Shown here: positions 39,153 to 61,905 of the stretch, piece after piece
How positions within the stretch are numbered: the first letter of the stretch is position 1
Layout: every line of letters begins with the position of its first letter
Virus record (IMG/VR): IMGVR_UViG_3300034092_001518
Span: 1-62,135 of that record
DNA from: a virus
Length of the DNA: 62,135 nt
Direction: 5' to 3' (one strand)
Program-made: the position numbers and the translations under genes
Notes under the pieces: model-generated
Told to the model about the DNA's origin: nothing
What the model saw: only the letters and a program-made list of their open reading frames with translations
The model's database searches: none

Positions 39153-40224
39153 GTCTGGAATGACAAACAAAACAGAAATAACTAGAAGGGTTTTTAATAG
39201 TGATGATGAGACTAGCAGAAGTGCTGTTAGAAGGGCTATTAGTTACTATGAAAACAACAGGGCTCTTTATGATGAGTGTGAAAAGGTAGGAATACCAGTG
39301 GAGGACGTAAAGCACTATTGGCACAAGGGGAAACACTTTAGCATTAATGTTAGCGGAAGCTGTTCGGAGGTAAACCTAGAAGAATTTAAGTCAGAACTTG
39401 TGTCTGAGATTAAAAACTGGTCTCCTAAGTACGTTAAAATTAAAAGAGAAAAACTTTCTGATCCACATTGTTTTGTCTTTGACCCTGCCGATATTCATAT
39501 TGGAAAGCTGTGCTCATCGTTTGAGACTGGAGAGGATTATGATCAACAAATAGCTGTTAGCAGGGTTAGGGAAGGACTTAACGGACTGATTAGCAGGCTG
39601 TCTGGTTACAATATAGACAAGATAATTTTTATTGCTGGAAACGATGTTCTTCACGTTGACAACCCTAGGAGACAAACAACAAGCGGAACTCCACAAGACA
39701 CTGACGGAATGTGGTACGACAACTTTGTCATGGCTAAAAGGTTGCTAATAGATATTATAGAAACACTTATGTCTATAGCTGACGTTCATGTTGTTTATAA
39801 TCCAAGCAACCATGATTTTATGTCTGGATTTATGTTGTTGCAGTGTGTAGAGGCATGGTTTAGTAACTGTAAGAACGTTACGTTTGATAACGACATGAAG
39901 CACAGAAAGTACACCACGTATGGAAAGAACTTGATTGGAAGCACCCACATGGACGGTGCTAAGATTCAGGATTTACCGCTTTTAATGGCCCACGAGGCAT
40001 CAGATAGTTGGCACAATTGTGTTCACCGATATATTTATGGGCATCACGTACACCATAAGTCTTCAAAGGACTATATGTCTGTGAATGTAGAAACACTAAG
40101 GTCTCCATCTTCTGCTGATAGCTGGCATCATAGAAATGGATACCAGCACTCACCAAAGGCAGTTGAGGGTTTTATACACCACCCTTCCAATGGTCAGGTA
40201 GCTAGGCTTACGTATATATTTTAA
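39103..40224 (+). CDS. metallophosphoesterase with N-terminal HTH
   Basis: 373 residues. The N-terminal 50 residues (SKILDLYRSGMTNKTEITRR, SRSAVRRAISYYENN) look like a helix-turn-helix. A calcineurin-type core follows: DPADIHIGK near residue 130 (D-x-H), AGNDVLHVD (GND), NPSNHDFM (N-H) and YGHHVHH (GH-x-H). It is probably a nuclease/phosphodiesterase similar to SbcD-like phage enzymes, acting with the replication genes. It is the last rightward gene; its stop shares bases with the converging giant gene. Confidence 0.85.
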   Translation: MPKKAINQTSKILDLYRSGMTNKTEITRRVFNSDDETSRSAVRRAISYYENNRALYDECEKVGIPVEDVKHYWHKGKHFSINVSGSCSEVNLEEFKSELVSEIKNWSPKYVKIKREKLSDPHCFVFDPADIHIGKLCSSFETGEDYDQQIAVSRVREGLNGLISRLSGYNIDKIIFIAGNDVLHVDNPRRQTTSGTPQDTDGMWYDNFVMAKRLLIDIIETLMSIADVHVVYNPSNHDFMSGFMLLQCVEAWFSNCKNVTFDNDMKHRKYTTYGKNLIGSTHMDGAKIQDLPLLMAHEASDSWHNCVHRYIYGHHVHHKSSKDYMSVNVETLRSPSSADSWHHRNGYQHSPKAVEGFIHHPSNGQVARLTYIF

Positions 40225-43200: not shown

Positions 43201-46200
43201 TTTAATTTATTTTTTTGTTCGTTTATCCTTCTTATTTTTGATTCGATGTCTTTTAAAGACATGCTCTTGTCTATGATGCCTTGCTCAACCAACGATGGAT
43301 TGTTAGATAACAGTCTTTCTTTTTTTATGTTTTCCTGGCCTTCTAAATACTGATCAACGTATGAGTATATATCGCTAAACTTAGTTGTATTTGAAATAGA
43401 AAGAGAGGTTGGTTTCAACGCATTCTTAACTTGTTCGGCTATCGCCATGTACTCGTCAATGTCCTCAACTAAATCTGGGTCTATAGATGCAAATACAGTT
43501 GCCATAGCTCTTACTTCGGCCTGTCTATTGCTATCTTTTTTTAACTTTTTAATAGTTGCTCTTGCTGATTTTGCTTTGTTTATTTTCTCTTTGTAGTCAG
43601 CGTCTTTCATTACTTTGTCAACATAGTCTATAACCCTGTCAACCGTCTCTTCGTTTAAAAGATTAACCTTTGATATCCTATCATTTATTGCGGACAATTG
43701 CTTTTCAGATATTTTGCCCTTGTAATTTTTTATTACGTTCTTAATGGCAATACCAAGTTCTTTTCTTCTCTGGTTAATATCTTTAGTTGCTTCTCTTGCG
43801 GCTTTTGCTTCTAGCTTTATTTGATCACGAATTGCGGCAGCAAGGTCTGAAACAACAGCAGTATCTTTTGTTTTTCCTGTTATCTTAGCAACAGATGGAG
43901 CGGCCTTTAATTTTTCTCCGAAGAACTTTTTGATTTCTCTTACAGCATTTTCTCTTTGAGTGTCGTCAGCTTTTGCATACCAGTCTGACTTTTGTAGGTC
44001 AGCAATTGCAGCTGTTACACCTTGTTGATGTGAGTTGCCTCTCTTTTCTACTGATAGCTCGTACTTGTCCTTAGCTTTTTGAATGGCATCTTGTTTGCTT
44101 GGTTTCTGGGCCTTGATTTTGGATGGTTCTATGGATTCATTATCAAGATTAGATTGATCTACAGCTGCTGAATTTTCATCCATTGATATTTTATTTCCAT
44201 CAGCCATATATTCAAACCACACTGGTTTACTTATTCCTCCAGCAATATCTTCTATTTTAGTATGAGCTTCATCTAAAGATATAGATCCAGAACTATAATC
44301 ATCCCATACTTTATTTATATTTAACTCGTTATTTTTGTTTGACTTAAATGTAGCTTTAAATAAACCTCTCACAGCTTCCCAAGTTATACTTTGAACTTCT
44401 CTTGGAAGCAATCCAAGTTCTTTTGCTAGTTCTCTATAAGCATCCGCATATACTGGATATGTTCCAGTCATTCCAGTATTTACATTTCCTGCACCACCAA
44501 AATTATATAGCACTTGCTTTGAGCTTCCGCTTAATGGTAGAAGTAATCCAGCAGCAACTGCGTGAGTATCTATAGTAACTGCATCTGGATCATTTGGATT
44601 AGATATATTGTTAAAGAAATTTCTAACCTTATGCATATTACCAAGATTAGAAGATATATTTTCAATAGATCCATCTTGAAGTATTGATATTGATTTTTCT
44701 ATTGTAGGAAATGCTCCCCATCCACAAGCTCCAGGAGATCCATCAGATTTTCTAACTAATCCATTTACTTCTCCATTAGGAGATATGTTATTATATTCTC
44801 TCGAATTATATACCTCATCAAATACTCTGATAAAATATGCTTTGTCTTTATTGTTTAATTCTGATAATTTTTTATTCTTTACTCTTGAAATTATTTCTTT
44901 AGAATCTTTAAATAATGGTACTTTATTTTTACCAGTACCAGACGTAGCATTATTTACATAATCTATCATTTTAGAATCAAAAATAGAATTCTGTTGATTA
45001 GTATAAATATCTATTACTCTTTCGCCTAATGATAAATTTCTAAACCAATCCATTTGAGGACTAAGTACAGCCATTACTCCAGATACTTGTTCTAAGGAAT
45101 AATTATATTGATTTGCTATTTTATTACAAATAATATTTGCTCCATCATACCATAACTTTGATATGTCTCTTACATCAACACCAAATGAGTTATGTAACCA
45201 TTTTAAGTTAGACTTTACAGAATTTTTAAAATCATTTACTACTTTTTTAGCATCATCAAAATTTTCTACATTTTTTATTTTTGATATACCGTATGAAGAT
45301 ATTTCTTTTGCTATTTTTATATATTGATCCTGTATTTTTTTATCCTTAGACGCATCTTCTTCTAGAGATTTCATACTTACTATGTAGTCTCTAGTAGAAT
45401 GTATATTATCTTTTTTAGGAAGTCTAGTGCTTACAGTTTTACCCTCTTTTACATTTGACTTTGCATCATTTATTATTTTTGGTTTTTGACTTTTAATGTT
45501 TTTTATTGATGATTCTGAAGGTTTTTTTAAGTTACCATATTTATCTGTTTCAGATGGAATAACTTTAGATACATTACCAACCTCAATCTGCTCACCTCTT
45601 CCGAGCTTACCAGACATTGAGTTCATAAAGTCAACAGCGTCTTGTGCAGTTGCAGCAGCAGAAAAGACAACAGGTAGTCCTAGCTTCTTGGCAATCTTAT
45701 TGACTAATGTTTTAAACTGTTGGAACTTTGTTGTAGATAATTCTCTCTGTGCCTCGGCCATAATGGCTCCAAGTTCAGCGGTATACTCCTCTGCTCTATC
45801 ACCCTCTTCGTAGTTAGATATAAATTCATCAAGTCTTTGTTTTAATGCCTTGTCAGATATAACTGACTTAAGACCTTTAGCCATGTCTAACAATGCATTG
45901 TTGTCCATACCTTTTTTGGCCAATAGGTCGTGAAATGCTTCGTGAAAAACGGTGGTCACGCCAGCCGTTTCTAAGTTGATATGAACATCTCCATTTACAT
46001 ACGCACCTCTAAACGTATCGGCCCCTTGATTCTTAGCGTCTTCTTTTGTTGTATTAGCAGATTTAGCAACACCATCAACAAATGAATCAGTATTTTCGTG
46101 AAGTATAATTCTTGCGTTTGGAATAGCAGACAATACCTTTTGAACAGCTATAAATACTTTCTTTCTCTTTGCGTCTGTCTCATTGTTAATTCTTTCAGTG

Positions 46201-49200
46201 ATAGTCTGATTGGTCTCAGGAGTTATCGTTACTTCTTGAGCAACTTGAGTAGGAGCAGCCTGTTTTTCTGGCATTACCTTTTGGCCAAAGTCGTATCCAA
46301 TAGAGAATGTCTTTAGCCCGTCCTTCGTGTTTACTACAGAAACAAAGTCAGACTCTGGACTATAGCTCTCAGTAAAACTTAGATTGTCGTCAGCCTTTAC
46401 CCTTGGGTTCATTGATCCATCCTGGTATACCAAACCGTCAGAGTGTGCGACAGCCTCTTGATTGAACTGTTTAGCAAATTCAATAGCATCCTGTCTTGTT
46501 AGGTTAGGAACAAAGAAAGAGTTCTCTGCCTGTCCATACTTTCCAGTTACACGTCTTGGTTTGTATCCTCTTTCAGTAAGCCACTCCTCAGCCTTTTGGT
46601 TTAGTTGTTTGTTTTCTTCCTCGGTAAGAGGTTGTGCCATTGGGTTCTCAGCGGTAAGCAAACCGAACTCTCCGTCAAGTTCTTTTGTCAACGTCTCTAC
46701 GTCTTCAATTGGAAGCTCTTTAGATGCGTTCTCAACGTACTCACTGGTAGATCTAAATGCCTTTCTTTCTTCTGCCTGTGGCTCTGTTGGATATACGATA
46801 TCTACGTCAGCAACTTTTGCAGTTGCTCCTGGAACTATTCCTTCTTTTGCAGTTGCAACCTCCTCTGATGTCTTTGTTATTTCATCAGAAACAGTAGCTG
46901 TGGGAGTTGCCTCACCCTCTGATACATCTACTTTTTCTGGAGTTTTTAAAGCAGCTAGTTCTGCATCATATTTAACATTGATATTTTCTTTTATTTTTTC
47001 AAAGCCACTTCTTTTTGTAGTTTCAAAAAACATATTTGGAGATTCTTCTGTATTACTCCATAATCCATTACTTTTATCTAATACTTGTGGTCTACCTGTT
47101 ATTTCATTTATTCTGAAAATTCTATTATTAGGATCACCTATTATTCTAAATTCACCATCTTCAACTGTTGGTTTTCTGTCATAAACTACCCTTTCTTTTA
47201 ATTCTTCTTGTCTTCTTCTTTCTATATCAGCTTTCTTAGCTTCTATAACAGTAGCTGTGGGAGTTGCCTCACCCTCTGATACATCTACTTTTTCTTGGCT
47301 ACTTTTTTCGGTAGCTTCTTTCCCTTGGACGACTGGTTCCACTCCTTCACGTCCACCCCCTGTTTCTCCAGTTCCTTCTTGTTGGCGTTGAAGAACGCTC
47401 TCTGTGCTTGACTCTTGTACGGCATATCCTATTTGTTTTAGTGTTTCGTTTATTTCTTTTACTCTTTCTATGCTAGGAGCTGCAAGTGCAGGATCTACAC
47501 CTTCTATTTGGCTATTAAGAGCATCTCTTTCAAGCATAAGATCAAGTGCAACAGCCTGCTCTCGTATGGGCATTTCTTTTGGTATGGTGTTGACTTTTTG
47601 TTTTATTATTTTGAAGTTTTCTAGTATTGACTGTGCTGTTTTTTTTGAATATTTACCACTAAGAAGTGATGCCTGTAGATTAGCTACAACAAGCTCGTCC
47701 ATACCAGAGGCCCTAGCGGCAGCTACCAACGCCTCTCTTTCTTCTTTTGTGCGTAGAGCGTTCATTCCCCTACTAACTACACTTGCTGATTGTGAAATCA
47801 ATGAAACTCCATGCCCTCCAACTGCACCAACAACAAAACTTTCAAGTGCATCTTTTCCTAAATTTCTCCACGTAACAGCATCATTTCCAGCTGCATCTTT
47901 GAACATTTTCTCTCCCCTTATAGCTTCTATAGTTGCCTTTGTTCCATATTCAGCTCCTGTTTGAAGTGACTCAGTAAATCCTTCTGCAAAACCAGCAGCA
48001 GCTATCTTTATGCCTTTGTCTGCAATAAAAAGTTTTATTTCGTTTGTAACCAAAGCCTCTACGGCTTCCTTGCTCATATCTTTCGTTAAACCTTGAACGG
48101 TCCTTTTCATTATGTATCTAGATATAGAGCTACCCATTCCTCCTTTACCGAAAATTTCATCTAGACCATATTTTTCTAAGGCCATACTAACCGTTCCATA
48201 TATTGAACTAGCTAATATTTTTTCTGCTGCCGTCATGTCTGTTTTGTCAAGCTGAGTGGCCATTTCATTGTATCCACCACCAAACAATGCAAAGTTACCA
48301 CCAACAGCAGATTGAACCGCAGACCTAGCAAGACCAGTCGTTGCCTTATACAGTAAGTTTGCATCTGCTTCGTATTCTTCGCTTGTTCCAGCACCAACAA
48401 GAAATCCTGTTAAGCCTGAAAATGCATCTCTAGATGTTTTACCTGCCGATGCTTTTCCCTTTGCCCCTGTTCCTACGTCTTCAATATCTCCAAGAACCCC
48501 AAAAACAAATCCAGGAATATCTACAATTCCACCAACTATTGACTTAAGCAAACCACCCATAAAAGATCCCTGATCTTTAGACTTCATCATAGCAATTCCA
48601 GCAGCATACTCAGCGTTAGAAGATATTAATTCTATTGCACTAGCGCTGTTGGATAGTTCATCGGCATCTTTTATTAGTTTTGATTGTTCATTCTGTAAAT
48701 CTTGCAAATATTTTTCATTAACAAAGCTGTACCTTTCATTAAATTCAGCTTGTTTTTGTAGTAATATTTTTTCTGCGTCTCCTACACTAATCTCTCCTTT
48801 AGATATTAAGTTTTTATATTGTAATGCAAGATTTTTTATGTCGGCAGCATCTTTGCCCATTTGAGTTATTAAATCTTGCTTCTCAGCAAATAAAGATTGA
48901 TTTTTTTTAAAATCTTCAAGTTTTTTCTTTATAGAGTTGTTTTCTGCTTTTAATGCATTAGCAACATCTTTAGAATAAGAGCTGGGTGTAAAATTTGGTG
49001 CAGTAATATATTCTGTAGCCGCCTGTAAATTTTTATTTCCTACTATTTGTAATAATTGTTGTCTTTCTTTGTCTAATATTGGTTTATTTTTTTCAAGGAG
49101 TATTTTTTCTTTTGCTTCGGCACTTAAAAACTTTGCATTTGGTCCGTATATTTTTTCTTCTGCAACAAGTTTTTCTTTTTCTATTCTATTTATTTCGTTA

Positions 49201-50732
49201 AAATAATTATAAACTTTAGTGTTATCACTAATGATAGCCTGATCAAAATTATAGACATCTGGAGATGATATCTTAAAACCTTCTTTTGGCTGTACAATCT
49301 GTCCTTCTTTCTCCCATTTTTTCGGATCTAACAAACTTAACTCTTTGTCAGGTTTAGTTTCTTTTTTTACTGGAGCTTCTCCTGTATAAGAAGGTTTGGC
49401 GTTAGCGATAAGAAAATTTTGTATATCGGGTATTAAGTTGTCGTCATCAATATAAAATCTTTTAGTACCTCTTTTAGTTTGTATTGTTATTGACCTTTCA
49501 GTCATGCCAAAACGATCAGTAAATCCACCAGTCATTTGATCTAAATATGGATTATCTGCCTTAATCATTATATTATAATCAGAGCCATATTTTGATAAAA
49601 AAGATTTTATTTTAGATTGCGTTTCGTATTGTGATGACTTATCGTCAAAAGTGCCCAAAAACCCTTCTTCTGTTTTTAATCCAGCCCAATCGCTTATTTC
49701 GTCATCATTACTAAATGTCTTATATACATCGTTTACAAACTCTCTATCGATATTATTTAAACTAATTAATTCACTAGACTTAGTTTTATCTGGAACGGGT
49801 AAATTTTGACCAAAATATGAATTTACATTTTTAATTGATTTGGGATCTGTAATAAAATAGTAGTAAGCATCTCCTGGATTTTTTACTTTCCAAAAACCAT
49901 TCTCTACTACATATTGTTTTCCATTTTCAGAAGCATATATCTGACCAGATGTACTTAGAGATGCTTGAGTTCTATTTTCTTTATTTAGTTTGGCTACAGT
50001 TTTAGCGTCTTCTAAAGGTACTCCAATAAATTCTGTAGGCATATATTCTGCATCATCCTTTACATCTTTTAGCTGCCATTTTTGATATGTGTTTGATGCC
50101 TCATCATAAAAAATTTCTCCAACACGTAAAGTTCTTTCTTTTCCACTCGCATCAGTACCTGTTTGAGGATCACGCATTAAGCTTATATCTCTGTCAGTCA
50201 AAGGTACATCTGGCAACCCTAAGGCGCTTTTTCGTACTGGCTTATAAGTTTCAGGAACACCTATTTGGCCACCACTGGCATATGCTATGTTTTCCCAAAA
50301 ATCTTTATCGCCGAAATAACCAGCGTCTGATATTTTTTTTTGCTGTTTTGTTAAGCCTCCTGTTAACCTATTTGTGAGATATTCTTTATAATCACTTTTT
50401 TTAGGAGTTACTTTAACTTCTTTTAATTTTAAATTTTGCTCTAGTGTCTTTAATCCTTCTTTTTCTTTTTCACTAAGGCTTTCATATTTTACAGCACCTG
50501 ATTTTAATTGAGTTCTAAGCTCTTGAAGTTGTTTTTCAAAATCTACAATGTCGTCATACTTATAATCTAAACGACCAACATTTTCTTCCTCAGTAACATG
50601 GGCCCACCTAGACTTCCTTTTCTTTCTAGGTTTTTCATCATCAACCAATACTTGATTTTCCGCATCAACTGCTAGCACGTCTTGAGATAAGTCCTGAGCC
50701 TCTAAATCTTCGTTAATGTTTTCGTCTATCAT
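40221..50732 (-). CDS. giant virion protein (polyvalent, ejected type) with zinc-metalloprotease motif
   Basis: 3503 residues, 17 percent of the window. The N-terminus is acidic with KPRKKRKSRWAHVTEEENVG. Hydrophobic stretches lie near 735 (GLLKSIVGGIVDIPGFVFGV) and 2960-2990 (GTTMALGGVFQFILQTFSVG). Near residue 1594 is HEAFHDLL, an HExxH zinc site, followed by EEYTAELGA. At about 1880-2060 is a domain (SGVMAVLSPQMDWFRNL and TIDTHAVAAGLLLP) that recalls DUF7178 of actinophages. The rest is long charged helix. Giant polyvalent proteins of this type are thought to be packaged and injected, like T7 gp16. No RNA polymerase motif was found. Confidence 0.8.
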   Translation of the reverse strand: MIDENINEDLEAQDLSQDVLAVDAENQVLVDDEKPRKKRKSRWAHVTEEENVGRLDYKYDDIVDFEKQLQELRTQLKSGAVKYESLSEKEKEGLKTLEQNLKLKEVKVTPKKSDYKEYLTNRLTGGLTKQQKKISDAGYFGDKDFWENIAYASGGQIGVPETYKPVRKSALGLPDVPLTDRDISLMRDPQTGTDASGKERTLRVGEIFYDEASNTYQKWQLKDVKDDAEYMPTEFIGVPLEDAKTVAKLNKENRTQASLSTSGQIYASENGKQYVVENGFWKVKNPGDAYYYFITDPKSIKNVNSYFGQNLPVPDKTKSSELISLNNIDREFVNDVYKTFSNDDEISDWAGLKTEEGFLGTFDDKSSQYETQSKIKSFLSKYGSDYNIMIKADNPYLDQMTGGFTDRFGMTERSITIQTKRGTKRFYIDDDNLIPDIQNFLIANAKPSYTGEAPVKKETKPDKELSLLDPKKWEKEGQIVQPKEGFKISSPDVYNFDQAIISDNTKVYNYFNEINRIEKEKLVAEEKIYGPNAKFLSAEAKEKILLEKNKPILDKERQQLLQIVGNKNLQAATEYITAPNFTPSSYSKDVANALKAENNSIKKKLEDFKKNQSLFAEKQDLITQMGKDAADIKNLALQYKNLISKGEISVGDAEKILLQKQAEFNERYSFVNEKYLQDLQNEQSKLIKDADELSNSASAIELISSNAEYAAGIAMMKSKDQGSFMGGLLKSIVGGIVDIPGFVFGVLGDIEDVGTGAKGKASAGKTSRDAFSGLTGFLVGAGTSEEYEADANLLYKATTGLARSAVQSAVGGNFALFGGGYNEMATQLDKTDMTAAEKILASSIYGTVSMALEKYGLDEIFGKGGMGSSISRYIMKRTVQGLTKDMSKEAVEALVTNEIKLFIADKGIKIAAAGFAEGFTESLQTGAEYGTKATIEAIRGEKMFKDAAGNDAVTWRNLGKDALESFVVGAVGGHGVSLISQSASVVSRGMNALRTKEEREALVAAARASGMDELVVANLQASLLSGKYSKKTAQSILENFKIIKQKVNTIPKEMPIREQAVALDLMLERDALNSQIEGVDPALAAPSIERVKEINETLKQIGYAVQESSTESVLQRQQEGTGETGGGREGVEPVVQGKEATEKSSQEKVDVSEGEATPTATVIEAKKADIERRRQEELKERVVYDRKPTVEDGEFRIIGDPNNRIFRINEITGRPQVLDKSNGLWSNTEESPNMFFETTKRSGFEKIKENINVKYDAELAALKTPEKVDVSEGEATPTATVSDEITKTSEEVATAKEGIVPGATAKVADVDIVYPTEPQAEERKAFRSTSEYVENASKELPIEDVETLTKELDGEFGLLTAENPMAQPLTEEENKQLNQKAEEWLTERGYKPRRVTGKYGQAENSFFVPNLTRQDAIEFAKQFNQEAVAHSDGLVYQDGSMNPRVKADDNLSFTESYSPESDFVSVVNTKDGLKTFSIGYDFGQKVMPEKQAAPTQVAQEVTITPETNQTITERINNETDAKRKKVFIAVQKVLSAIPNARIILHENTDSFVDGVAKSANTTKEDAKNQGADTFRGAYVNGDVHINLETAGVTTVFHEAFHDLLAKKGMDNNALLDMAKGLKSVISDKALKQRLDEFISNYEEGDRAEEYTAELGAIMAEAQRELSTTKFQQFKTLVNKIAKKLGLPVVFSAAATAQDAVDFMNSMSGKLGRGEQIEVGNVSKVIPSETDKYGNLKKPSESSIKNIKSQKPKIINDAKSNVKEGKTVSTRLPKKDNIHSTRDYIVSMKSLEEDASKDKKIQDQYIKIAKEISSYGISKIKNVENFDDAKKVVNDFKNSVKSNLKWLHNSFGVDVRDISKLWYDGANIICNKIANQYNYSLEQVSGVMAVLSPQMDWFRNLSLGERVIDIYTNQQNSIFDSKMIDYVNNATSGTGKNKVPLFKDSKEIISRVKNKKLSELNNKDKAYFIRVFDEVYNSREYNNISPNGEVNGLVRKSDGSPGACGWGAFPTIEKSISILQDGSIENISSNLGNMHKVRNFFNNISNPNDPDAVTIDTHAVAAGLLLPLSGSSKQVLYNFGGAGNVNTGMTGTYPVYADAYRELAKELGLLPREVQSITWEAVRGLFKATFKSNKNNELNINKVWDDYSSGSISLDEAHTKIEDIAGGISKPVWFEYMADGNKISMDENSAAVDQSNLDNESIEPSKIKAQKPSKQDAIQKAKDKYELSVEKRGNSHQQGVTAAIADLQKSDWYAKADDTQRENAVREIKKFFGEKLKAAPSVAKITGKTKDTAVVSDLAAAIRDQIKLEAKAAREATKDINQRRKELGIAIKNVIKNYKGKISEKQLSAINDRISKVNLLNEETVDRVIDYVDKVMKDADYKEKINKAKSARATIKKLKKDSNRQAEVRAMATVFASIDPDLVEDIDEYMAIAEQVKNALKPTSLSISNTTKFSDIYSYVDQYLEGQENIKKERLLSNNPSLVEQGIIDKSMSLKDIESKIRRINEQKNKLNKATNSEELKDNLKGEINSLKDILKAMVFGYNPITNERVEMTDRIKQVIKEISSLDVDDMTTEQMIALVESLNNFVKNGTIGGLDAAHKTYVGIKNANDLKRKGFVARQLKAYFSPMLGRLLGFEGMSLNELFTRLFGGVTRGNEFMEKSGVAGVVMGVNKAKKMSNAYQELYANTFKNIKGFFDQENVYERGVLAFVYRTNSIKPEEANKEFNRRIDLLLESYESLKNGTAEEQKMAEVYKKVFDRLNIESRDMSVIESNAKQFNIAGAAWWMGTWENHYQDLYDVSLSIYNTDLGSDFYYTSDRLSKLSESTGESIDITNISERGSSFLINTENEEITDKSKAGVLIASTYPATLKDKGRYVNLNFDINQSQALSGALVDIETAGAIRQVDAFISSDSFKSIIPSSSDRSLVVNRINKYIRRSKNKLLVPKDYARVIDKVINEAGRFGTTMALGGVFQFILQTFSVGINTLIQAGKYTQLYTGKSFNDWMNSTGTPTANRGVESVTSIENKMNAIDPVKSTLQQVARQYQKLTQVYMRTFLSKPDVFVARAAWKSYYLKYLSDNGYDTKKINWDTWNDTIKEEGIQDLHKKAMLFAENMVSRQQNVSDERLAGETFASEDGLRKAIRKILLPFAGFSVNQRMRLANDIITLTSAINVASKEDIKIAGRSLVGTVAEQATFNFIKYQVGKLIYYGAMSILGYGDDDEDEEEAKKRNRNALKYPIKSFIGDMASPAPFLDDFVVWAIDKGIKPFMEPSESEINDAVNEENNIRINALGKYKMTEDEKEEFIKKYKEDNTFSLESFKNDTGKYGLISVGSDAYEALYESLKMNDGKYTEEFQGKETEKYLTKDQIESQKIFSALKLFHFIGALPREANQLADKGTRKIKQNSLTKNQYESYKEFTKVFKREPKPYEIDIIKSTNYEIEEGYEEGSNTQMLLIIGDIDDLGGFSNQQGKVYSKLFEETRIQLTPAVYELIQKGKTAEQIKKILSN
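46890..46938 (-). repeat. 49-bp perfect direct repeat in the giant gene, copy 1
   Basis: Identical over 49 bp to 47247-47295, with a 357-bp period (119 codons), so the repeat stays in frame and encodes EKVDVSEGEATPTATV twice. Confidence 0.9.
47247..47295 (-). repeat. 49-bp perfect direct repeat in the giant gene, copy 2
   Basis: Second copy of the 49-bp repeat. The segment between the copies encodes an extra module with EFRIIGDPNNRIFRINEITG and is probably a recombination-mobile insertion. Confidence 0.9.
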
Positions 50733-52843: not shown

Positions 52844-53242
52844 TTATAAAATTTTTACCATTTCAGTTGTGTTTGTAGATCCCTTTTGAAATCCACAATT
52901 TTCGTACATCTTTATTAAAGATGGACTCTTTAACGTTGAAAAAGCATAAATAAATCCATTTTGTTTGCAAATCTCTAAAAGAGAATATATTAAAAACTCT
53001 ATGGCCTCTTTTCTGTCCTTTTCTCTGTAATGGAAGTTAGATACTATAAACTCAATCCACGCTACCTTAGAGTTTGTTGCGTATACAAAACCAGCACACA
53101 CATCCTCTCCATTGCTCGATACCATTATGCCTCCTGTGCCGTTTTCTGGCAAGAAGTCTTTAGATATTACTGGCCATCTCCAATCCCTCCACCAGTCACA
53201 TATCTTATGGTAATCGTCTTCAACCAAGTATCGGACTTCCAT
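52844..53242 (-). CDS. GNAT-family acetyltransferase
   Basis: 132 residues with the GNAT fold order: N-terminal MEVRYLVEDDYHKICDWWRD, the strand VCAGFVYATNSKVAWIEFIV, an acetyl-CoA loop region around NFHYREKDRKEAIEFLI, and the C-terminal LIKMYENCGFQKGSTNTTEM that fits the GNAT motif B. Single GNAT proteins lie in the ejection cassette of many short-tailed phages, and the one here may modify a virion or host protein. A TAAATTTG box is 5 nt before the start. Confidence 0.75.
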   Translation of the reverse strand: MEVRYLVEDDYHKICDWWRDWRWPVISKDFLPENGTGGIMVSSNGEDVCAGFVYATNSKVAWIEFIVSNFHYREKDRKEAIEFLIYSLLEICKQNGFIYAFSTLKSPSLIKMYENCGFQKGSTNTTEMVKIL

Positions 53243-53246
53243 ATCA

Positions 53247-53254
53247 CAAATTTA
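53247..53254 (-). promoter_or_regulatory. TAnnTTTG -7 promoter box
   Basis: TAAATTTG on the minus strand, 5 nt upstream of the acetyltransferase ATG. It matches the -7 consensus; the leader would be very short. Confidence 0.45.
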
Positions 53255-54076
53255 CATAAAACTTTTGAATACTGAAGAGCTTATTTCGAATAACTCTACT
53301 GGTCCTCCGCTGTTGGTAGTTAGAAGAATATCCATGTAATAACCTCTAACCCCATAAGACTCAGCAACAGAATTTTTTATCGCAAGTATCTCGTCACCTG
53401 AGCTTGGAAGAGTTCCAACAGTACTTAAATATACTATTGGCTGACCGTTTAGATCAAAGTTGTCTACCGACTGAACTGTACCTACATAAGAAAGTACTCC
53501 AGAAGGAAAATATTTATACACGTCATCTGGAGCTGATACATCTTTTATTTGTAGTGATGAAGATGGGTAAGAGTTTATTCTAAAGTAAGGAACAGGAGAA
53601 CCTCCAGAGTCTAGTACATTTCCAAGGCCAATAATCCTTGTACTCAGTTTATCGTCAAGCTGTCCTATATTAATTAAAGATCCACCAGAAGGATTGTTGT
53701 TACGTCTTATATGAGCAAAATAACTTCCTTCTTTTTCTTCAAACCAAGTGTTGCTTATGTTTCCAGACAGTAAGTCAGTAGTAACTGACACACTCCATGC
53801 AGACGTGCTTTCAAGAGACACCGTCTTAAATAGCTTAACCTCCAAAGGCGAGTCATTAAACACCGTTCTTACTTCGCAAGTAGGAAGATTTACATATGGA
53901 CTAGATACATAGTATACCGTTCTTTGTACTGAAGGAACATTATGTAGATATATATTTCCATTTTTAAACGTATAAAACTTATTACTAACGTAAACCATAT
54001 AGTCTGGAATGTAACTCCAGAATGAAGTCCATCCTTGAACATCGTCAGAATAAGATATCGTTAAAGGAACAACCAT
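53252..54076 (-). CDS. tail module resembling the C-terminal part of tail stabilisation proteins
   Basis: 274 residues. The opening LTISYSDDVQGWTSFWSYIP, then VSNKFYTFKNGNIYLHN and TVFNDSPLEVKLFKTVSLES, copies the C-terminal module that, as I recall, ends the tail stabilisation protein in related phages (SYDExVxGWxSFxSFxPxxM...NxFYTFxNGxLYxHN...FNDxPxxxKxFKTLxxE). Here it is a separate gene 3.8 kb downstream of the gene encoding the rest of that protein. The body is beta-rich. Probably part of the tail tube or tip. Promoter TAAATTTG upstream. Confidence 0.65.
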   Translation of the reverse strand: MVVPLTISYSDDVQGWTSFWSYIPDYMVYVSNKFYTFKNGNIYLHNVPSVQRTVYYVSSPYVNLPTCEVRTVFNDSPLEVKLFKTVSLESTSAWSVSVTTDLLSGNISNTWFEEKEGSYFAHIRRNNNPSGGSLINIGQLDDKLSTRIIGLGNVLDSGGSPVPYFRINSYPSSSLQIKDVSAPDDVYKYFPSGVLSYVGTVQSVDNFDLNGQPIVYLSTVGTLPSSGDEILAIKNSVAESYGVRGYYMDILLTTNSGGPVELFEISSSVFKSFM

Positions 54077-54094: not shown

Positions 54095-55009
54095 TTAAAC
54101 CAAACAGCTATCTATTGATTTTACTAGCCTATAATAGTGATAAGAACACCTTTTATCTGAAACAAACTCATTGCTGTCGTATGGGTATTTATCCATGTAC
54201 TTAGCCTTGTGAAACATTCCGTCTTTGTCAGACATTACCCCAGCATTATGAAAGAAGTATAGCTGGTCCCACTTATCTGAATTGCATGTTGCCCAACAAA
54301 AGTCAAACTCTTTGGGAACAACAACATCTATTCCCATCTTCCATGCGGTCCATAGCTCTGCCCACATGCTTGCGGTCCAAGCCTGTATACCATGATTGCT
54401 CCCGTCTTTTCTTACGTGTTGCATCTTCATCATTACCTCATAAAGCTCAAACGAGTATTTTTCTACTAGCTCCCAGTACTCATGTGTTAAATTTTTCATC
54501 AACTTCTGAGCACCTCCGCTATTGTTCTGATTATTTTTTACTATATCTTTTGATATGCCCACAACGTTGCACATTGCATCTAGCACCTCTTCTCCCTTGC
54601 TTACTATGTAGTCGTGCCCTATGTATGATATTGTATCAGAAAAATACCACTTATCATCAACTAAAAATTTATCGAAATTAAGGTGTCTAGTGAAGGCAAA
54701 GTCAGCGTCAACAAAAAAATATGCACTACTATCTGGGTGCTCTTTAAAATGTTTCTTTAGTATATGCGACTGTATTGCAGGAAGATACTTACAATCACCT
54801 AGAGTGTCTTCGTAAAAGAAAAAGTTAATTCTAGAATATACCTTTTGTAGTTTAAACCAAGACTCTGGTATGTCATCCTGATAACCTGCTACGACATACA
54901 TCTGTTCTGGATCGTATCCATTCAACATGAAGTTTACTATTTGCACCTCAACCTGCCAAGCATAATAATCTATAGCTGGTTGAGCTGACAAGAATTTAAT
55001 TTTATTCAT
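54095..55009 (-). CDS. glycosyltransferase-like protein (GT-A type)
   Basis: 304 residues. The order MNKIKFLSAQPAIDYYAWQV, YVVAGYQDDIPESW, then SAYFFVDADFAFTRHL with the D-x-D motif (DAD) near residue 104, a SDTISYIGHDYIVSKG segment, and NNSGGAQKLMKNLTHEYWEL, matches phage GT-A-like proteins I recall from Bacteroidota phages. The DxD binds the metal and nucleotide sugar. It ends in a His/Tyr-rich tail. It shares a base with the stop of the poly-Thr fibre gene, so both are made together; fibre glycosylation is the obvious hypothesis. Confidence 0.7.
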   Translation of the reverse strand: MNKIKFLSAQPAIDYYAWQVEVQIVNFMLNGYDPEQMYVVAGYQDDIPESWFKLQKVYSRINFFFYEDTLGDCKYLPAIQSHILKKHFKEHPDSSAYFFVDADFAFTRHLNFDKFLVDDKWYFSDTISYIGHDYIVSKGEEVLDAMCNVVGISKDIVKNNQNNSGGAQKLMKNLTHEYWELVEKYSFELYEVMMKMQHVRKDGSNHGIQAWTASMWAELWTAWKMGIDVVVPKEFDFCWATCNSDKWDQLYFFHNAGVMSDKDGMFHKAKYMDKYPYDSNEFVSDKRCSYHYYRLVKSIDSCLV

Positions 55010-57858
55010 TAACAGTTTTTAGTGTTTCCAGTAAAGTTTATACCATCGTACTCGTAAGCTACTGTGCTAGTGTATATCTTGTAGTAATTTGCAGGAGCAG
55101 GTACAGTTAAGGATGAATCTAAGAACACTTGAGTTAACGTGTTCCCAATAGGTCCGTCCATGTAAAATGTAATAGCAATAGAACTACAAACATTGTCGGC
55201 GCTACCAAAGTTACAAAGCAACTCGTAAACTGGAGGAATAGTTGTAGTGGTAGTTGTTGTAGTAGTAGTTGTCGTAGTTGTAGTAGTAGTTGTTGTACTT
55301 GTAGTTGTACCAACGCAAGAAGAACAATTTTCAAACATAAATAATATGTTCGCAATTTGAGCTCCTGATGGAGCAGTTGAAACTATTTCATAACAATTAC
55401 CATCGTCACACCTAACAATTTGACCATTGCTAAGTTGAGTAAAATCTAGATGAGCCAATAAAAATAACGGACCAGGATTGCTACACAATTGGGCATCATA
55501 AAAATATGTAGGAATAGTTGTTGTTGTAGTTGTTGTCGTTACAACGCTACATAGGTTAACATGCAACACTTGACCAGTGTCAGCTATTTGTATTGCGTAT
55601 GTATTGACCCCATCATCAGCAAAATACCAATAAAACCCACCATTGAATATAATTGTACACAATGCATCAGAGTAAACGATATCTCCAACTAGTGGCATTG
55701 AAGGTATACCAAAGTAATAGAATGGAGTTGTCGTACCACCACCAATACATGCCGCATAATCGTCTGGCAGATATGGAGATGTTCCGTCCATGTTAAATGA
55801 AGATATAGGAGGTAATGTTGTGGTAGTAGTACTAGTGGTAGTTGTAGTTGTCCCAGTACAAGTTGTGCAATCTGGATATATTACAACTGGATTTTCCATG
55901 TAAAAATATGGATAACCACCTGGAGACGTAGATGTTATTTCCCAACAGTTACCATCTGCTGTTGCAACAATATCATTAACTACTATTACAGCTGATGTAA
56001 TATCCAAAAGTATTGCTGTAGTTACACCGTCTATACAAGAAACAGCCTCGTAGTAGTTACCTACAATTGGTAATGTAGTAGTACTTGTTGTGCTAGTTGT
56101 TGTAGTACTTCCTGCACAAACAGATAAATCTACAACATATCCATCGTTATCTATTTTTATAACATAGTCAGACTTATCTATAAAATACCAAAAGTCACCA
56201 CCATTAAAGAATTGATCTGAGTTCTGATCAACAAAAACTCTATCTCTAATAACGGGGACAGAGTTCTTTCCATTAAAATATAATACAGAAAAAGTTGGAG
56301 TTATGCTACAACAATCTGTTGGTGTTTCTTTTGATTGTTCTACATCTATTAATAATGGAGTTAATAAATCCCCTTGAGATACAAAAACATTAATAGTATA
56401 TGGTGCGCTTGTACCAAAACAATTTGTTGCAGTTACAGTGAAAGAAAAATCTCTTAACTCTTGAGCTGAACCAGACAATACGCCATCAGAACCTAAAGAT
56501 AATCCTGGAGCAAGAGAAACATCGTTACACTGACCATGTAAAGTAAACGATCCGTCTCCATTTATAATAGTAGGCGCAGAAGATGCACATATGCTCATCT
56601 CTTGATTAGAGCTTACCGTTATGTATTTAGTGTTTGAGTTGCAGTCTACGTATCCAAACAATGTTGACTTTGACCCACCACTAATTGAATAGTCGTAACA
56701 AGTACCAGTAATATCAAAAGATGTTGGGCTTCCTAGACTAGCCATAGGTATGCTAATATCTTCACCAACAGTTATAAATATATCTCCTTGAGTAATTATT
56801 GGAACGGCAGTTTCTGGGCAGTTACAAGTTTCAATTGAATTTACTACTCCAAATTCATCAACAAGTACATATGATTTATCAGTTGGACTTGGAACAGTAC
56901 ACAAAGAAATATCCATCATGTGGTATGCATCGTTACCATCATATGTACTAGATCCTAATGAATCAACATATATTGTATCGCCAAATTGTGGAGTTAAATT
57001 AAATCCATCGTGGTAATATATAGTTGTTGGACACTGAGTGCATACGTTTGATAAAGTGCCATCAGTTGTGTCTATATAAAAAGGAGTTAAGTATGGATTT
57101 ACTTTATTTATAATCCATGTAGATGTGGATAAAGGAGAAGAAACTACAACCTCTGCCGTGTCAACGCTTGATAAATTTTTCTTAAATCTAAGAGCACCTC
57201 TTCCATTATTTACTAGTCCGTTGTATGGAAAAGATAGCTTTATATCATCTGGGTTTACACCAGCATTAATTAGGTCGTTATAGTTTGTTAATGTATTCAG
57301 TCCTACATACCCAGAGTCTGCGATAATAGATCCATTCCACCTTATTTGAAATCTAGTTGGAGTGCTTATTGAGTTATAGTTTATTCCAGCAACCCCTATT
57401 CCATTACCTATATTCCAGTTAACAGGCCTACTGTCTGTTACACCAACAAAAGATATATTTGTAGACCCATCTATTGAATCGTTGTAATCCCAAAATAAAT
57501 ATAAATAAGGATAGTCATTTGGATTAACAAAAACAAAGCTTCCTACAAACTCGCCAGAAATATATATGACTGGTATTTCAGTAGCAAGTGATTTAATCGT
57601 GTCCTTATCATTTGGACCATACAATACATCTGAAACATAATAATATAGTTTGTTATTTAACGTTGGAGAAAGGCTTTGGTATACGCCAGTATTATCCCCT
57701 GCCTTAACTGTAACTGTAGATCCGTCATAAGGCATATAGTCTACACCACCAACTCCAGTAAGCTGGTCAAATATTGCAATATTATTGTTACTTATAACAA
57801 CATTATCAATTTCATAGGTTGAACTGCCTGTATAATCAAAGGATTGTTTTGTCATCAT
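55009..57858 (-). CDS. modular tail fibre with poly-threonine (mucin-like) linkers
   Basis: 949 residues, very low in Lys/Arg. The N-terminal 350 residues are beta-rich; an Ig/cadherin-like (He_PIG type) domain follows near 460-500 (LAPGLSLGSDGVLSGSAQEL, FSFTVTATN). From about residue 510 small Cys-containing modules alternate with Thr/Ser runs at about 580-595, 664-684, 770-783 and 848-872, the last with about 20 Thr. Two module types repeat: one with GDxVYxDxxxxxxFNGGxFWYF, the other with DGNCWEITSTSPxG and a C-x-x-C before the linker. It is probably an extended fibre with possibly O-glycosylated linkers. Confidence 0.7.
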   Translation of the reverse strand: MMTKQSFDYTGSSTYEIDNVVISNNNIAIFDQLTGVGGVDYMPYDGSTVTVKAGDNTGVYQSLSPTLNNKLYYYVSDVLYGPNDKDTIKSLATEIPVIYISGEFVGSFVFVNPNDYPYLYLFWDYNDSIDGSTNISFVGVTDSRPVNWNIGNGIGVAGINYNSISTPTRFQIRWNGSIIADSGYVGLNTLTNYNDLINAGVNPDDIKLSFPYNGLVNNGRGALRFKKNLSSVDTAEVVVSSPLSTSTWIINKVNPYLTPFYIDTTDGTLSNVCTQCPTTIYYHDGFNLTPQFGDTIYVDSLGSSTYDGNDAYHMMDISLCTVPSPTDKSYVLVDEFGVVNSIETCNCPETAVPIITQGDIFITVGEDISIPMASLGSPTSFDITGTCYDYSISGGSKSTLFGYVDCNSNTKYITVSSNQEMSICASSAPTIINGDGSFTLHGQCNDVSLAPGLSLGSDGVLSGSAQELRDFSFTVTATNCFGTSAPYTINVFVSQGDLLTPLLIDVEQSKETPTDCCSITPTFSVLYFNGKNSVPVIRDRVFVDQNSDQFFNGGDFWYFIDKSDYVIKIDNDGYVVDLSVCAGSTTTTSTTSTTTLPIVGNYYEAVSCIDGVTTAILLDITSAVIVVNDIVATADGNCWEITSTSPGGYPYFYMENPVVIYPDCTTCTGTTTTTTSTTTTTLPPISSFNMDGTSPYLPDDYAACIGGGTTTPFYYFGIPSMPLVGDIVYSDALCTIIFNGGFYWYFADDGVNTYAIQIADTGQVLHVNLCSVVTTTTTTTTIPTYFYDAQLCSNPGPLFLLAHLDFTQLSNGQIVRCDDGNCYEIVSTAPSGAQIANILFMFENCSSCVGTTTSTTTTTTTTTTTTTTTTTTTIPPVYELLCNFGSADNVCSSIAITFYMDGPIGNTLTQVFLDSSLTVPAPANYYKIYTSTVAYEYDGINFTGNTKNC

Positions 57859-57861
57859 ATC

Positions 57862-60800
57862 TTAAGAGCTTACCATTGGTATTAATTGTATTGGTGCTGT
57901 AACACCTCCTTGAGTTAGTATAAAGTCTTTTATTAGTCCATCACAATATGTGACTCTAAATATAATGCTTCTTGGAGTTTGAGATGGATTTGAAGCATAT
58001 GATGCATATACAAACTGATTATAAGATCCAGTATTAGTTTGACAGTTTACCCAGCTTGTACCAAAACCATTATCCACTAAAGTTATTTGCCAAGAAGTAG
58101 CAGAGCTCTGAACAGAGAACATAAAAGCAGGAGATGTAGAGGCAGATGAAGAGACATTCTTTATAGCTGGAACTAATTTTACATCACAAGATTGTTTTAC
58201 TCTTGATGAAACACTTAAAACATAAGTTCCATTGTAAGGGTCAAATCCACCAAACTTTAAATTAGCAGGGTTATCTCTCATCGTGTCAATAAAGAAAGAT
58301 CCCATTCCTTGATTTGAAATCGGTATCACCTCTGTTCCTACTAATTTTAAAACAGAACCTCTTTTTTCATCTGCAAAATAACAAACATCGCCCCAAGTAG
58401 CAAAGCTTTCAGGATTATCACTTATTCCAAACTCACCTGGATAAGCCACTTGATTACCAAGAACTTCTGGAATTGAAGCAACTTGACTGCCGCCCACAGC
58501 ATCGTATAGTAAGTTTTTACCATACAATACAGATGTTACCTTGTCTTGATGCAAAGTTAATAAGTCAGTATCTCTTGCTTTTAATTTCTGAACACTTCCG
58601 TATCTCTTGTCTAAGTTTTTAAAATTAGCAAGTGATAAGTTAAATTCATTTAATCTATTTGTTGATGTAGTAGCTTGAAAAACACCACTATATGTTAATG
58701 AGGCAAACTTGTGTTCTTCTTGATAGTCTTCTATAACTGAAGTAACCCTAATGCTATATTTCATTACTGGAGCATTAAATGCATCTTTTATTCTATATGT
58801 TTCTAGACCAGTATTGTATGTAAAAGAATTATAATCTCCATTAGTATAGTTAGGATAATTAATTTGTATTTTAGCTCCATTTGTAATAGATGTCTGATCT
58901 TGTTCATACGTTGTATAGGAAATAGAACCAGGGAATGATGGAGATATAGGTATAGTTGGTGTAACATCTATAGAGTATCTATCATATACATTTGTAATTG
59001 TATAAGGAGTGTTTGGGGTAACTCCATTTGTATTTAAATAAACAATATCGCCAACTGAAAAGTAGTGAGGCCATTCTTTGGTTGATTGTCTAAGCCTAGT
59101 ACTACCAAATACCCCAGGAGTTCTATTGCTAAAGAACCATCTTGATATATGTTTATTATTTTTTATTGGATATGTTCTTGATAATTCGTGAAATATTTCC
59201 GTATCTGTCTCTAAAGGAACGGTTTCAAAAATTATAGAATTTGATGGGGATATTTGATCAACTTTAAATTCAACATTAAATATATTTTGTTTACATCCAC
59301 TTTTTGTACCAAAACCCATCATAAACATTGATACTGGAGAAGACTGTGGAGATGAACTTGATTTTGATATATTTGTATAATTATTAGAATATGCGTATGA
59401 ATAATTTGTAGTTACTCCAGATGTGGGATAATTTAATCTTACATTTCTAAACCATATTCCTTTTGATTTTATATCTGTTCCAGATAAATCTTTTTCAATA
59501 AAATTTTTCCATGCTCCAGATTCAATAAACCATTCTTCTATATTATTATATGTTTGTGGCGATGTAAATGTTTGTGTTGTAGTATATACATTTGGATTAT
59601 ATGTATCTTGAGTTATTGTTATAGATATTGTAGCTCCAGCATATATATTTCCAGTAAAATTTCCATTTACTATTGATATACCTCCATTTTGATTATAAAT
59701 ATTACTTTGCGGACCACCATATTGTGCATTTGAACCAAAATAATTAGATCCATTATTAGATCTACAACTTATTTTCCATCTATCTCCAACAGAGTAATTT
59801 CCTTGGCCTATCTCTATAAAAAATGCTATACTTGTGTTTTGAAGTAATGGAGAAATAACTGGATCAAAAGCTTGCTGAACATTGGAAGGTAATTTAATAG
59901 GATATAACGTATTATTTACAATTGGTATATTTTGATCTATCCAATTTGAAACACCATCCAAGTCTACAGTATATCTAAATGTATTTCCAGATTGAATCTC
60001 TATTGTGTATCTTAAATCTTTTGAACCAAAATATTTACCACTAAACATAGTGGATGAAATCGGAATAGGACCTCCATTATATTGAATATTTGTTATAGTT
60101 TTTATTAAATTATTAGATGAAGATGGTGATCCATAAAGTATTGGTTTGCTAGTATAAGAAACAAGATCACCATTATTATATAAATACGCTGAATTAGATG
60201 CAGCATAATTAGATGAACCACAACCAGAACTATTCACATAGTTTGTTCCTTGACTTTTAACAAATATTTGTTGAGTTAAATTACATGGCAAAAAACCAAC
60301 ATCATTGTAATCTATTTTAATTTTAAAGTATAATCCACCTGGAGATGTACCTATAAAATTAATAGATTTTACTTCTACTTCTAATATTTTAAATTGTTTA
60401 TTTGAATATGTTACACCAGTCCCACCTTTTTTTAGTATAATATAATCACCAACACCAAACTTATCTCTATCAGATTCATTAATTAAAAAATATCTAAATA
60501 GACCATCACATACATATAATCTTGGAAATATATTGTAATACTCGTATTTATTTTGTTTTAAAACTAACCTATAGTTTGTTGCCCAAGATGGAGGATTATG
60601 CTTTATCTCAACCTGTAAACTATTCGCTTTATCTGATGCGGTTGGCGGAATATATACAGAATTACTTGATGTATTAACAGCGTTAGTTAGAGCTGGAGTT
60701 AAAACAGTTGTCATTCTTCCATACTCATCAGTATAAACTATTCCAACCTCATAGTCTCTATCGCTTCTAAATGATCTTTTAGGTTTATTACCTGATATGA

Positions 60801-61905
60801 TCTCAGAAGCATATTGTACTGTAAAATTTAAGTTTATATCCCCACCATTTGAATCAGTTATATCTCTAAACTGAATATAGTTACCATATACAAGTCTATT
60901 ACCAATAATATCTTGAGCTACAGCTTTTAATGGTACATTGTCAAAAAGCCTAGTTACCTGTTCGTTTGAAAGAGTAGTATATATTTTGTTGTTTCTAAAC
61001 GTAAACGAATATGTGGTATTATTTTGAATGTTTAACTCGTCCTTATTGAAGCTATCTATGACCATTACGTTCAAGCTTCTTGTATCTCTAACTAGTAGTT
61101 GTATTTCTTTAACAAATTCATTCCCAGTTTCGAATTCAATAACAATGTTATTTTTTTGGTTAATCATCCCCAAGTTATCACCAGTCTCATAGTCAATAGC
61201 AAAAGACCCAGCTTCAAATCCAACGGCTGAAAATGGAGACATTGAGCTGTACTCGTTATCTATATATTTATATCTATAGCTGAAGTATACAAACTTTTCC
61301 TTAAGGTTAGTAGAGTCTGGAGTATTGTTTTGATATAGAGTTATGTATGGGGCATTTAACGGGGGAGTCATAATCACACTAATGTCATCAGCTATTGATG
61401 GATCATCAGCCGTATAACCCTTACATCTATTGATGTTAATTCTTCTTGGTGGATTATAGTTATCCGTCCAAAACAAGTAATCATTACCGTCCTCTCCTTC
61501 TACGTAGTTGATTCCAGTTACAATTTGATTTGCGTTAAAATTTAAAGGACTACCTGGGTTTGGCTTTGAACATTGTAACACCCTGCTAACCTGTTGAGAT
61601 GCTACATTACACTCAAATATAGCATCAAACTCATTAGCTGTAACAAGCCAGTATATAAGTGACTTTGGCTCATATGCAACGGCCCCAATAACAATTGGAT
61701 TTGTAACAGTTCCAGAGGTAACTAAATTAGAAATATTACTAGCTATTGAGTTACCATATGCGTTTTGTATAGCACCAACGTCCTTTGCGCCATAACTGTT
61801 TACAGTAACATTTTTGGCGTATCTATAATATCCATTGGGCAATAACCTCTCATCGAGGTCTTGATTCATTACTCCCTTTTGAAATGTTCTACTAATATCA
61901 GCCAT
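57862..61905 (-). CDS. tail stabilisation-type protein with C-terminal BACON-like domain
   Basis: 1347 residues. Starts MADISRTFQKGVMNQDLDER, LLPNGYYRYAKNVTVN; this start (MADxSRTFxKGxMNxDLDERLLPxGxYRxAxNVxV) is known to me from tail stabilisation or tubular proteins of crAss-like and other Bacteroidota phages. The body is beta-propeller-like; a block near 1100-1230 has LNEFNLSLANFKNLDKRYGS and FDPYNGTYVLSVSSR. The last 100 residues (SWQITLVDNGFGTSWVNCQT, then RSIIFRVTYCDGLIKDFILT) resemble a BACON domain. The middle part looks more AT-rich than the ends. It probably surrounds the tail tube. Confidence 0.75.
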   Translation of the reverse strand: MADISRTFQKGVMNQDLDERLLPNGYYRYAKNVTVNSYGAKDVGAIQNAYGNSIASNISNLVTSGTVTNPIVIGAVAYEPKSLIYWLVTANEFDAIFECNVASQQVSRVLQCSKPNPGSPLNFNANQIVTGINYVEGEDGNDYLFWTDNYNPPRRININRCKGYTADDPSIADDISVIMTPPLNAPYITLYQNNTPDSTNLKEKFVYFSYRYKYIDNEYSSMSPFSAVGFEAGSFAIDYETGDNLGMINQKNNIVIEFETGNEFVKEIQLLVRDTRSLNVMVIDSFNKDELNIQNNTTYSFTFRNNKIYTTLSNEQVTRLFDNVPLKAVAQDIIGNRLVYGNYIQFRDITDSNGGDINLNFTVQYASEIISGNKPKRSFRSDRDYEVGIVYTDEYGRMTTVLTPALTNAVNTSSNSVYIPPTASDKANSLQVEIKHNPPSWATNYRLVLKQNKYEYYNIFPRLYVCDGLFRYFLINESDRDKFGVGDYIILKKGGTGVTYSNKQFKILEVEVKSINFIGTSPGGLYFKIKIDYNDVGFLPCNLTQQIFVKSQGTNYVNSSGCGSSNYAASNSAYLYNNGDLVSYTSKPILYGSPSSSNNLIKTITNIQYNGGPIPISSTMFSGKYFGSKDLRYTIEIQSGNTFRYTVDLDGVSNWIDQNIPIVNNTLYPIKLPSNVQQAFDPVISPLLQNTSIAFFIEIGQGNYSVGDRWKISCRSNNGSNYFGSNAQYGGPQSNIYNQNGGISIVNGNFTGNIYAGATISITITQDTYNPNVYTTTQTFTSPQTYNNIEEWFIESGAWKNFIEKDLSGTDIKSKGIWFRNVRLNYPTSGVTTNYSYAYSNNYTNISKSSSSPQSSPVSMFMMGFGTKSGCKQNIFNVEFKVDQISPSNSIIFETVPLETDTEIFHELSRTYPIKNNKHISRWFFSNRTPGVFGSTRLRQSTKEWPHYFSVGDIVYLNTNGVTPNTPYTITNVYDRYSIDVTPTIPISPSFPGSISYTTYEQDQTSITNGAKIQINYPNYTNGDYNSFTYNTGLETYRIKDAFNAPVMKYSIRVTSVIEDYQEEHKFASLTYSGVFQATTSTNRLNEFNLSLANFKNLDKRYGSVQKLKARDTDLLTLHQDKVTSVLYGKNLLYDAVGGSQVASIPEVLGNQVAYPGEFGISDNPESFATWGDVCYFADEKRGSVLKLVGTEVIPISNQGMGSFFIDTMRDNPANLKFGGFDPYNGTYVLSVSSRVKQSCDVKLVPAIKNVSSSASTSPAFMFSVQSSATSWQITLVDNGFGTSWVNCQTNTGSYNQFVYASYASNPSQTPRSIIFRVTYCDGLIKDFILTQGGVTAPIQLIPMVSS

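Follow-up and report, generated by a model that had tools for sequence, protein, structure and literature searches.

Why should a phage carry a glycosyltransferase-like gene directly behind a structural gene whose product is interrupted by runs of threonine (Thr) and serine (Ser)? This arrangement is found in a 62-kb virus record (IMG/VR IMGVR_UViG_3300034092_001518, positions 1 to 62,135, hereafter the window), which matches the muzzle and tail proteins of the Crassvirales-like group and belongs to a crAss-like phage. On its minus strand, genes for a fibre-like protein (949 amino acids, aa) and an enzyme (304 aa) sit between a tail gene upstream and a muzzle-domain gene downstream. A first-pass annotation of these letters had proposed a glycosylated tail fibre system, and what it read from the sequence was confirmed: both open reading frames (ORFs), four Thr/Ser tracts, cysteine (Cys)-containing modules, a DxD motif and a one-base overlap of the two genes are present, and the last tract, given as about 20 threonines, contains 22 Thr and one Ser. 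We consider it highly probable that the product of 54095–55009 is a soluble, cytosolic GT-A O-glycosyltransferase that adds sugar to the Thr tracts of the neighbouring fibre, the tract being a portable acceptor tag. The evidence consists of a predicted fold, a conserved DxD motif and histidine, co-inheritance of enzyme and tract, predicted tract disorder, and selection for threonine; from these we infer sugar transfer, its donor, its anomeric outcome, the number of sites and the benefit.

The description of the enzyme gene as GT-A-like was borne out by an AlphaFold model with a GT-A fold over the whole domain (predicted local distance difference test score, pLDDT, 95.8; predicted template modelling score 0.91). 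The best Protein Data Bank matches of this model in Foldseek were GT-A enzymes, namely UGGT (E 5e-7, probability 1.00), XXYLT1, LARGE1, glycogenin, GlyE and LgtC. A second structural alignment gave Z 15.1 for glycogenin (root-mean-square deviation 3.5, 223 aligned), 14.8 for LgtC (3.7, 237 aligned) and 13.7 for GlyE (3.4, 215 aligned). These GT8/GT24/GT6-type enzymes, several of which act on proteins or on the glycans of proteins, have the fold, the DxD motif and a C-terminal histidine in common with the phage enzyme, but only about 8–12% sequence identity. D101, D103 and H254 were invariant across 43 aligned enzyme sequences, and DxD with a C-terminal histidine is the arrangement expected in metal-dependent glycosyltransferases of GT8-like type. 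By analogy with GT8-type enzymes, H254 would be the third metal ligand, and a retaining mechanism is suggested by the fold neighbours only. The enzyme matched PHROG 4417, a family of unknown function, over its full length (residues 5–300, E 1.5e-61); it is phage-encoded and predicted to be soluble. In Pfam searches it matched no curated glycosyltransferase family above cut-off, with only Stealth_CR2 appearing, below its own cut-off, and Glycosyltransferase family 8 (PF01501) gave no match at E up to 1; membership of a CAZy family is therefore not established. A sequence search of solved structures returned nothing significant.

The suggestion that the enzyme and a poly-Thr fibre form a functional pair held in one direction throughout, since the enzyme never occurred without a Thr/Ser-rich virion protein in the phage loci we examined, and the pairing extends well beyond the single case that the first-pass annotation noticed. 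Each of the 70 IMG/VR loci that encode a relative of the enzyme had a Thr/Ser-rich gene nearby, nearly always immediately upstream, and these loci include contigs of other phage types with enzyme identity of 36–41%. All 10 isolate phages with the enzyme had a Thr/Ser tract nearby (weak in phage 9183), and all 80 further Firmicutes phage loci encoded a tagged virion protein, commonly head and tail proteins both. The carrier of the tract differs by phage and may be a fibre, the major tail protein, the major head protein, or the last two together. For example, the gene before the enzyme encodes a 428-aa protein with PPTTTTTTSTTTTTTSSTTTTTTAAP in Chryseobacterium phage MA9V-3, a major head protein ending KTTTTTTSHV in R9.1, and a tract-bearing major tail protein in 1706, phiFL1A and PMBT8. 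Enzyme and tract are separated by several genes in some Firmicutes phages; in bIL285, a prophage of Lactococcus strain IL1403, the enzyme follows the head protein, and it is the major tail protein, encoded five genes further on, that carries the Thr tail. Several relatives carry TTTTTTTVKP or TTSP repeats, and in the weakest of the 70 loci (L015) TTSP repeats, which are of mucin type, have taken the place of the tracts. The one-base overlap, which the first-pass annotation took as support for the pair through joint translation, is not the feature that matters and proved not to be general: in most relatives the gap between the enzyme and its upstream gene is anywhere between −13 and +70 bases.

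Two enzyme-carrying contigs showed further arrangements. A 118-kb phage contig has five nearby proteins with Thr/Ser tracts (L068, 48–9927). On a crAss-like contig binned in a Bacteroidetes metagenome-assembled genome (L282, 1–4002), the enzyme is accompanied by GT2 and Caps_synth-like genes with two Thr-rich proteins around, a possible multi-step version of the system.

The pairing also held from the other side, as homologous virion proteins in loci without the enzyme lacked the tract. We compared four virion-protein families with and without the enzyme (crAss-like, phiFL1A-type tail, bIL285-type tail and Enterococcus head), the numbers inside any single family being too small for significance. 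Among crAss-like loci anchored on the tail and muzzle genes, the tract was present in 9/9 with the enzyme and 0/21 without it, and some of the latter keep a tract-free homologue of the N-terminal part of the fibre. The phiFL1A-type tail protein of Enterococcus phages had a tract in 3/3 loci with the enzyme, where the head protein is tagged too, and in 0/7 without, even though proteins from the two groups are up to 88% identical. For the bIL285-type tail protein the figures were 11/11 with the enzyme and 0/30 assessable without, four of the 34 negatives (L331, L333, L348 and L361) being too short upstream to judge. The Enterococcus head protein occurred with both enzyme and tract in 52 cases and with neither in 10 assessable ones (two of 12 negatives, L505 and L510, end too soon after the head gene); enzyme-less head proteins, up to 86% identical, end in ISKLAPTPSK in place of ISALGTTTTTTKPTTTTTTTQA. 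Apparent exceptions were traced to contigs that end before the enzyme's place (L213, L234, L461 and L462), to frame breaks in the head gene (L459, L513 and L522), and to an enzyme gene that is present and was missed by the gene caller (L494). On the trees, enzyme and tract change together in all six independent changes on well-supported branches, three of them in the crAss-like family and two and one in two tail-protein families. Separately, the bIL285-type tail protein of L348 (989–1861), on a 4.4-kb contig that does not cover the enzyme's place, contains KTKTTTTTPTG internally and has an additional domain at its C-terminus.

The tracts themselves appear to be maintained as threonine. The four tracts of the fibre, of 8–23 residues each, lie between Cys-containing beta modules, and their Thr codons are mixed (ACA 23, ACT 22, ACC 3 and ACG 2), with no run of identical codons longer than three. 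Among relatives, first and second codon positions keep Thr and third positions are saturated, with identity of 0.34–0.48, at or near the random value of 0.34 expected from codon use. Tracts for this comparison were picked as Thr/Ser runs, so that amino-acid conservation is biased upward; the third-position figure is unbiased. At the codon level, this pattern shows selection for the amino acid rather than for the DNA. In the AlphaFold model of the C-terminal 450 residues of the fibre, the Cys modules form folded beta domains, and the only four segments with pLDDT below 50, i.e., predicted to be disordered, are the four tracts. Foldseek gave no significant match for the modules searched as a single model.

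Other explanations for the tracts were weighed against these data. Tract length varies among relatives, as would be expected of functionless products of triplet-repeat slippage. However, tracts 2 and 3 are nearly fixed in length across relatives, Thr is kept over saturated third positions, and mixed codons with identical runs of at most three argue that slippage is not the cause; we rejected this explanation on the codon data and give it practically no credence. A role for host machinery, also raised in the first-pass annotation, would have periplasmic O-glycosylation of Bacteroidota modify the fibre, with the adjacent enzyme incidental. A Bacteroidota host is likely, judging from kinship with Cellulophaga and Flavobacterium phages (relatives of the upstream tail structural protein occur in Cellulophaga phi38:1 and Flavobacterium elemo phages). 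Yet the tracts do not fit the D-S/T-hydrophobic sites of that system, the same pairing occurs in Firmicutes phages, tailed-phage virion proteins are made and assembled in the cytosol, and the enzyme is phage-encoded and predicted to be soluble, all of which makes this origin very improbable.

The tracts could instead be plain flexible spacers, with the enzyme modifying something else, such as a host surface glycan against superinfection, and the two genes travelling together as neighbours. Such spacers would be disordered, as the tracts are predicted to be, and poly-Thr is present in phages without this enzyme. This account does not explain why the enzyme accompanies tracts on unrelated proteins (fibre, tail and head), sometimes genes away, as in bIL285, or on two proteins at once, nor why homologues without the enzyme are tract-free; it also offers no reason for Thr specifically or for the extreme C-terminus of head and tail proteins, and we regard it as improbable. 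A variant of the glycosylation proposal rather than an alternative to it holds that the enzyme performs one step, starting or extending a glycan that other phage or host transferases finish. The two further glycosyltransferase-like genes behind the enzyme in L282 agree with this, as do a bacterial relative fused to a second transferase domain and the structural neighbour GlyE, whose role is to lengthen a glycan carried by a Ser-rich protein. Pfam and PHROG profile searches, however, recognised no second transferase next to the enzyme in the window, and we hold this variant to be possible though doubtful.

Direct glycosylation of the tracts by the enzyme also has several points to its disadvantage. 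Glycosylation is predicted here from sequences and models, and co-inheritance would follow equally if the enzyme bound the tract for some other purpose. Many of the compared loci are near-duplicates, so the counts above overstate independence. Most bacterial relatives of the enzyme have no obvious poly-Thr neighbour or clear Thr run in their cluster. Furthermore, poly-Thr is not exclusive to enzyme-bearing genomes, and in this respect the proposed pair did not hold: among ~110 loci with poly-Thr ORFs, picked from IMG/VR by DNA pattern with tracts of 12 or more, only ~15 have the enzyme in the fetched locus, and two of 50 whole records of enzyme-negative loci carry it elsewhere. With most poly-Thr loci lacking the enzyme, we rejected the idea that poly-Thr always needs it; poly-Thr can exist without it or with other enzymes. 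Among the direct neighbours of enzyme-negative poly-Thr ORFs, 5 of 95 were GT2 enzymes, compared with 0 of 140 genes lying further off in those loci; the numbers are small but hint that the acceptor may be shared with other enzymes. A GT2 match was present somewhere in 13 of the 50 whole records.

Chromosomal relatives of the enzyme in Bacteroidota place the family in a different setting. Most of them carry an additional, fused domain, which in L290 matches a galactosyltransferase. Their genes belong to GG-leader peptide clusters that also encode radical SAM, LanC-like and C39 transporter proteins, and some of these clusters include Thr-rich peptides (GGVSWTTTTTTSSVPV in L308 and CGKTTTVPTTPAP in L290). 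This context fits a family that may act on peptide Thr. In L290 (4173–12098) and L308 (7615–9578), a longer, apparently two-domain relative occurs with the Thr-rich peptides, and the cluster products are possibly glycosylated ribosomally synthesized and post-translationally modified peptides (RiPPs). On a contig labelled as a delta proteobacterium (L283, 3–3994), a relative of the enzyme adjoins a protein in which PDAPAPESSQ is repeated; this is perhaps a counterpart of the pair with a bacterial surface protein.

Taken as a mechanism, the enzyme would act in the cytosol of the infected cell, because it is predicted to be soluble and is encoded with virion genes, and would modify newly made fibre either ahead of virion assembly or while it is under way. 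The donor would be a nucleotide sugar, probably a UDP-sugar, and the acceptors Thr hydroxyls of the tracts, which are very probably the sites that this enzyme decorates. One enzyme family would serve a portable tag, whether carried by a fibre, the major tail protein or the major head protein, across crAss-like, other Bacteroidota and Firmicutes phages. Decorated fibre tracts would form extended, mucin-like linkers between folded beta modules, and C-terminal tags on capsids and tail tubes would produce a sugar coat. Since glycosylated Thr runs of mucins are extended and protease-resistant, the fibre tracts may keep the Cys modules at a distance from one another and protect them; possible benefits include stiffening, shielding from proteases or antibodies, and surface adhesion.

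Similar systems are known in other settings. Freeman et al. reportedly described mycobacteriophage virion glycosylation in 2023. According to two later sources (PMC12363180, PMC12691614), phage-encoded glycosyltransferases modify capsid and tail-tube proteins of the mycobacteriophages Che8, Corndog and Myrna, and this modification is reported to shield virions from antibody binding. As virion glycosylation by phage enzymes is already known, we do not propose a new kind of process. A phage-encoded transferase is common to both, here predicted from its fold, but Che8 glycosyltransferase genes lie far from structural genes, unlike in the crAss-like locus. Che8 gp108–110 did not match a profile of the enzyme family (best E 0.22 with all filters off), and we rejected homology on that basis; the Che8 major capsid and tail proteins contain no Thr/Ser tract, with at most 7 Thr/Ser in any 20 residues. 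In Streptococcus pneumoniae, GlyE and partner transferases are encoded beside the Ser/Thr-rich surface protein PsrP. The acceptor there is an adhesin that the bacterium secretes, its repeats are of Ser and several enzymes make up the pathway, whereas our case concerns tracts of Thr on virion proteins and, as a rule, a single enzyme. Eukaryotic mucins likewise have Thr/Ser/Pro-rich stretches (PTS domains) between Cys-rich modules, and the fibre tracts are comparable in being Thr/Ser-rich and predicted disordered; the resemblance is one of sequence type, not homology. The Bacteroidota GG-leader RiPP clusters (TIGR04149 peptides, TIGR04157 glycosyltransferase), which hold the enzyme's chromosomal relatives beside short peptides, some with Thr runs, differ in the fused second domain and in an acceptor that is presumably a small peptide.

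In the open-licence literature we found no report of a poly-Thr acceptor tag that goes with a single enzyme family in phages of both Bacteroidota and Firmicutes, although an earlier description is possible. If the proposal is correct, the enzyme family and Thr tract together would give a sequence-readable rule for which phage virions are glycosylated and where, in phages that infect gut, dairy and aquatic bacteria. A single enzyme with a single tag would also suggest itself as a system for attaching sugar to proteins, the poly-Thr stretches of phage structural proteins would gain a function, and there would be consequences for how antibodies recognise phages and how phages bind surfaces. The system is directly testable, as the enzyme occurs in several cultured phages. 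More broadly, we lean towards poly-Thr being a general, transferable glycosylation tag of tailed phages, such that a genome gaining the enzyme gains Thr tags on an exposed fibre, head or tail protein and, with them, a mucin-like coat in Bacteroidota and Firmicutes phages; the enzyme would be shared with Bacteroidota peptide-modification clusters, and GT2 enzymes would serve the tag elsewhere.

Table 1. Features of the fibre–enzyme locus and its flanking genes, in window positions
Feature	Position	Strand	Basis
Virion fibre-like protein, 949 aa; N-terminal region, then Cys-containing beta modules split by four Thr/Ser tracts	55009..57858	-	phrog_21885, phrog_13374
Thr/Ser tract 1, STTTTSTTSTTT, aa 584-595	56074..56109	-	pLDDT <50 at aa 584-597
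Thr/Ser tract 2, TTTTTTSTTTTT, aa 670-681	55816..55851	-	Codon count, pLDDT, third-position comparison
Thr tract 3, 8 Thr, aa 774-781	55516..55539	-	Codon count, pLDDT, third-position comparison
Thr tract 4, 22 Thr + 1 Ser, aa 851-873	55240..55308	-	Codon count, pLDDT
GT-A glycosyltransferase, 304 aa, phrog_4417 family; proposed O-glycosylation of Thr tracts	54095..55009	-	PHROG match, alignment, AlphaFold model, fold matches
DxD motif (D101-A-D103), predicted metal/nucleotide-sugar site	54701..54709	-	Invariant in 43 aligned sequences
Invariant H254 of HNAG	54248..54250	-	Alignment; role inferred
TAATG one-base overlap, fibre stop/enzyme start	55007..55011	-	TAA and ATG share base 55009
Upstream crAss-like tail structural protein (phrog_14478); anchor for the comparison with and without enzyme	57862..61905	-	
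Downstream protein with Crassvirus muzzle C-terminal domain (PF25729, E 5e-11); second anchor	53252..54076	-	

Three other minus-strand genes of the window were recorded. Directly downstream of the muzzle gene, positions 52844–53242 encode a 132-aa protein with a weak GNAT acetyltransferase match (phrog_17252). A 3503-aa ORF at 40221–50732 has DUF7178 and DUF3293 matches and is similar in size to the giant proteins of crAss-like phages, and positions 19744–21309 encode a phage chaperonin of the Cpn60/GroEL family (PF00118, E 5e-59).

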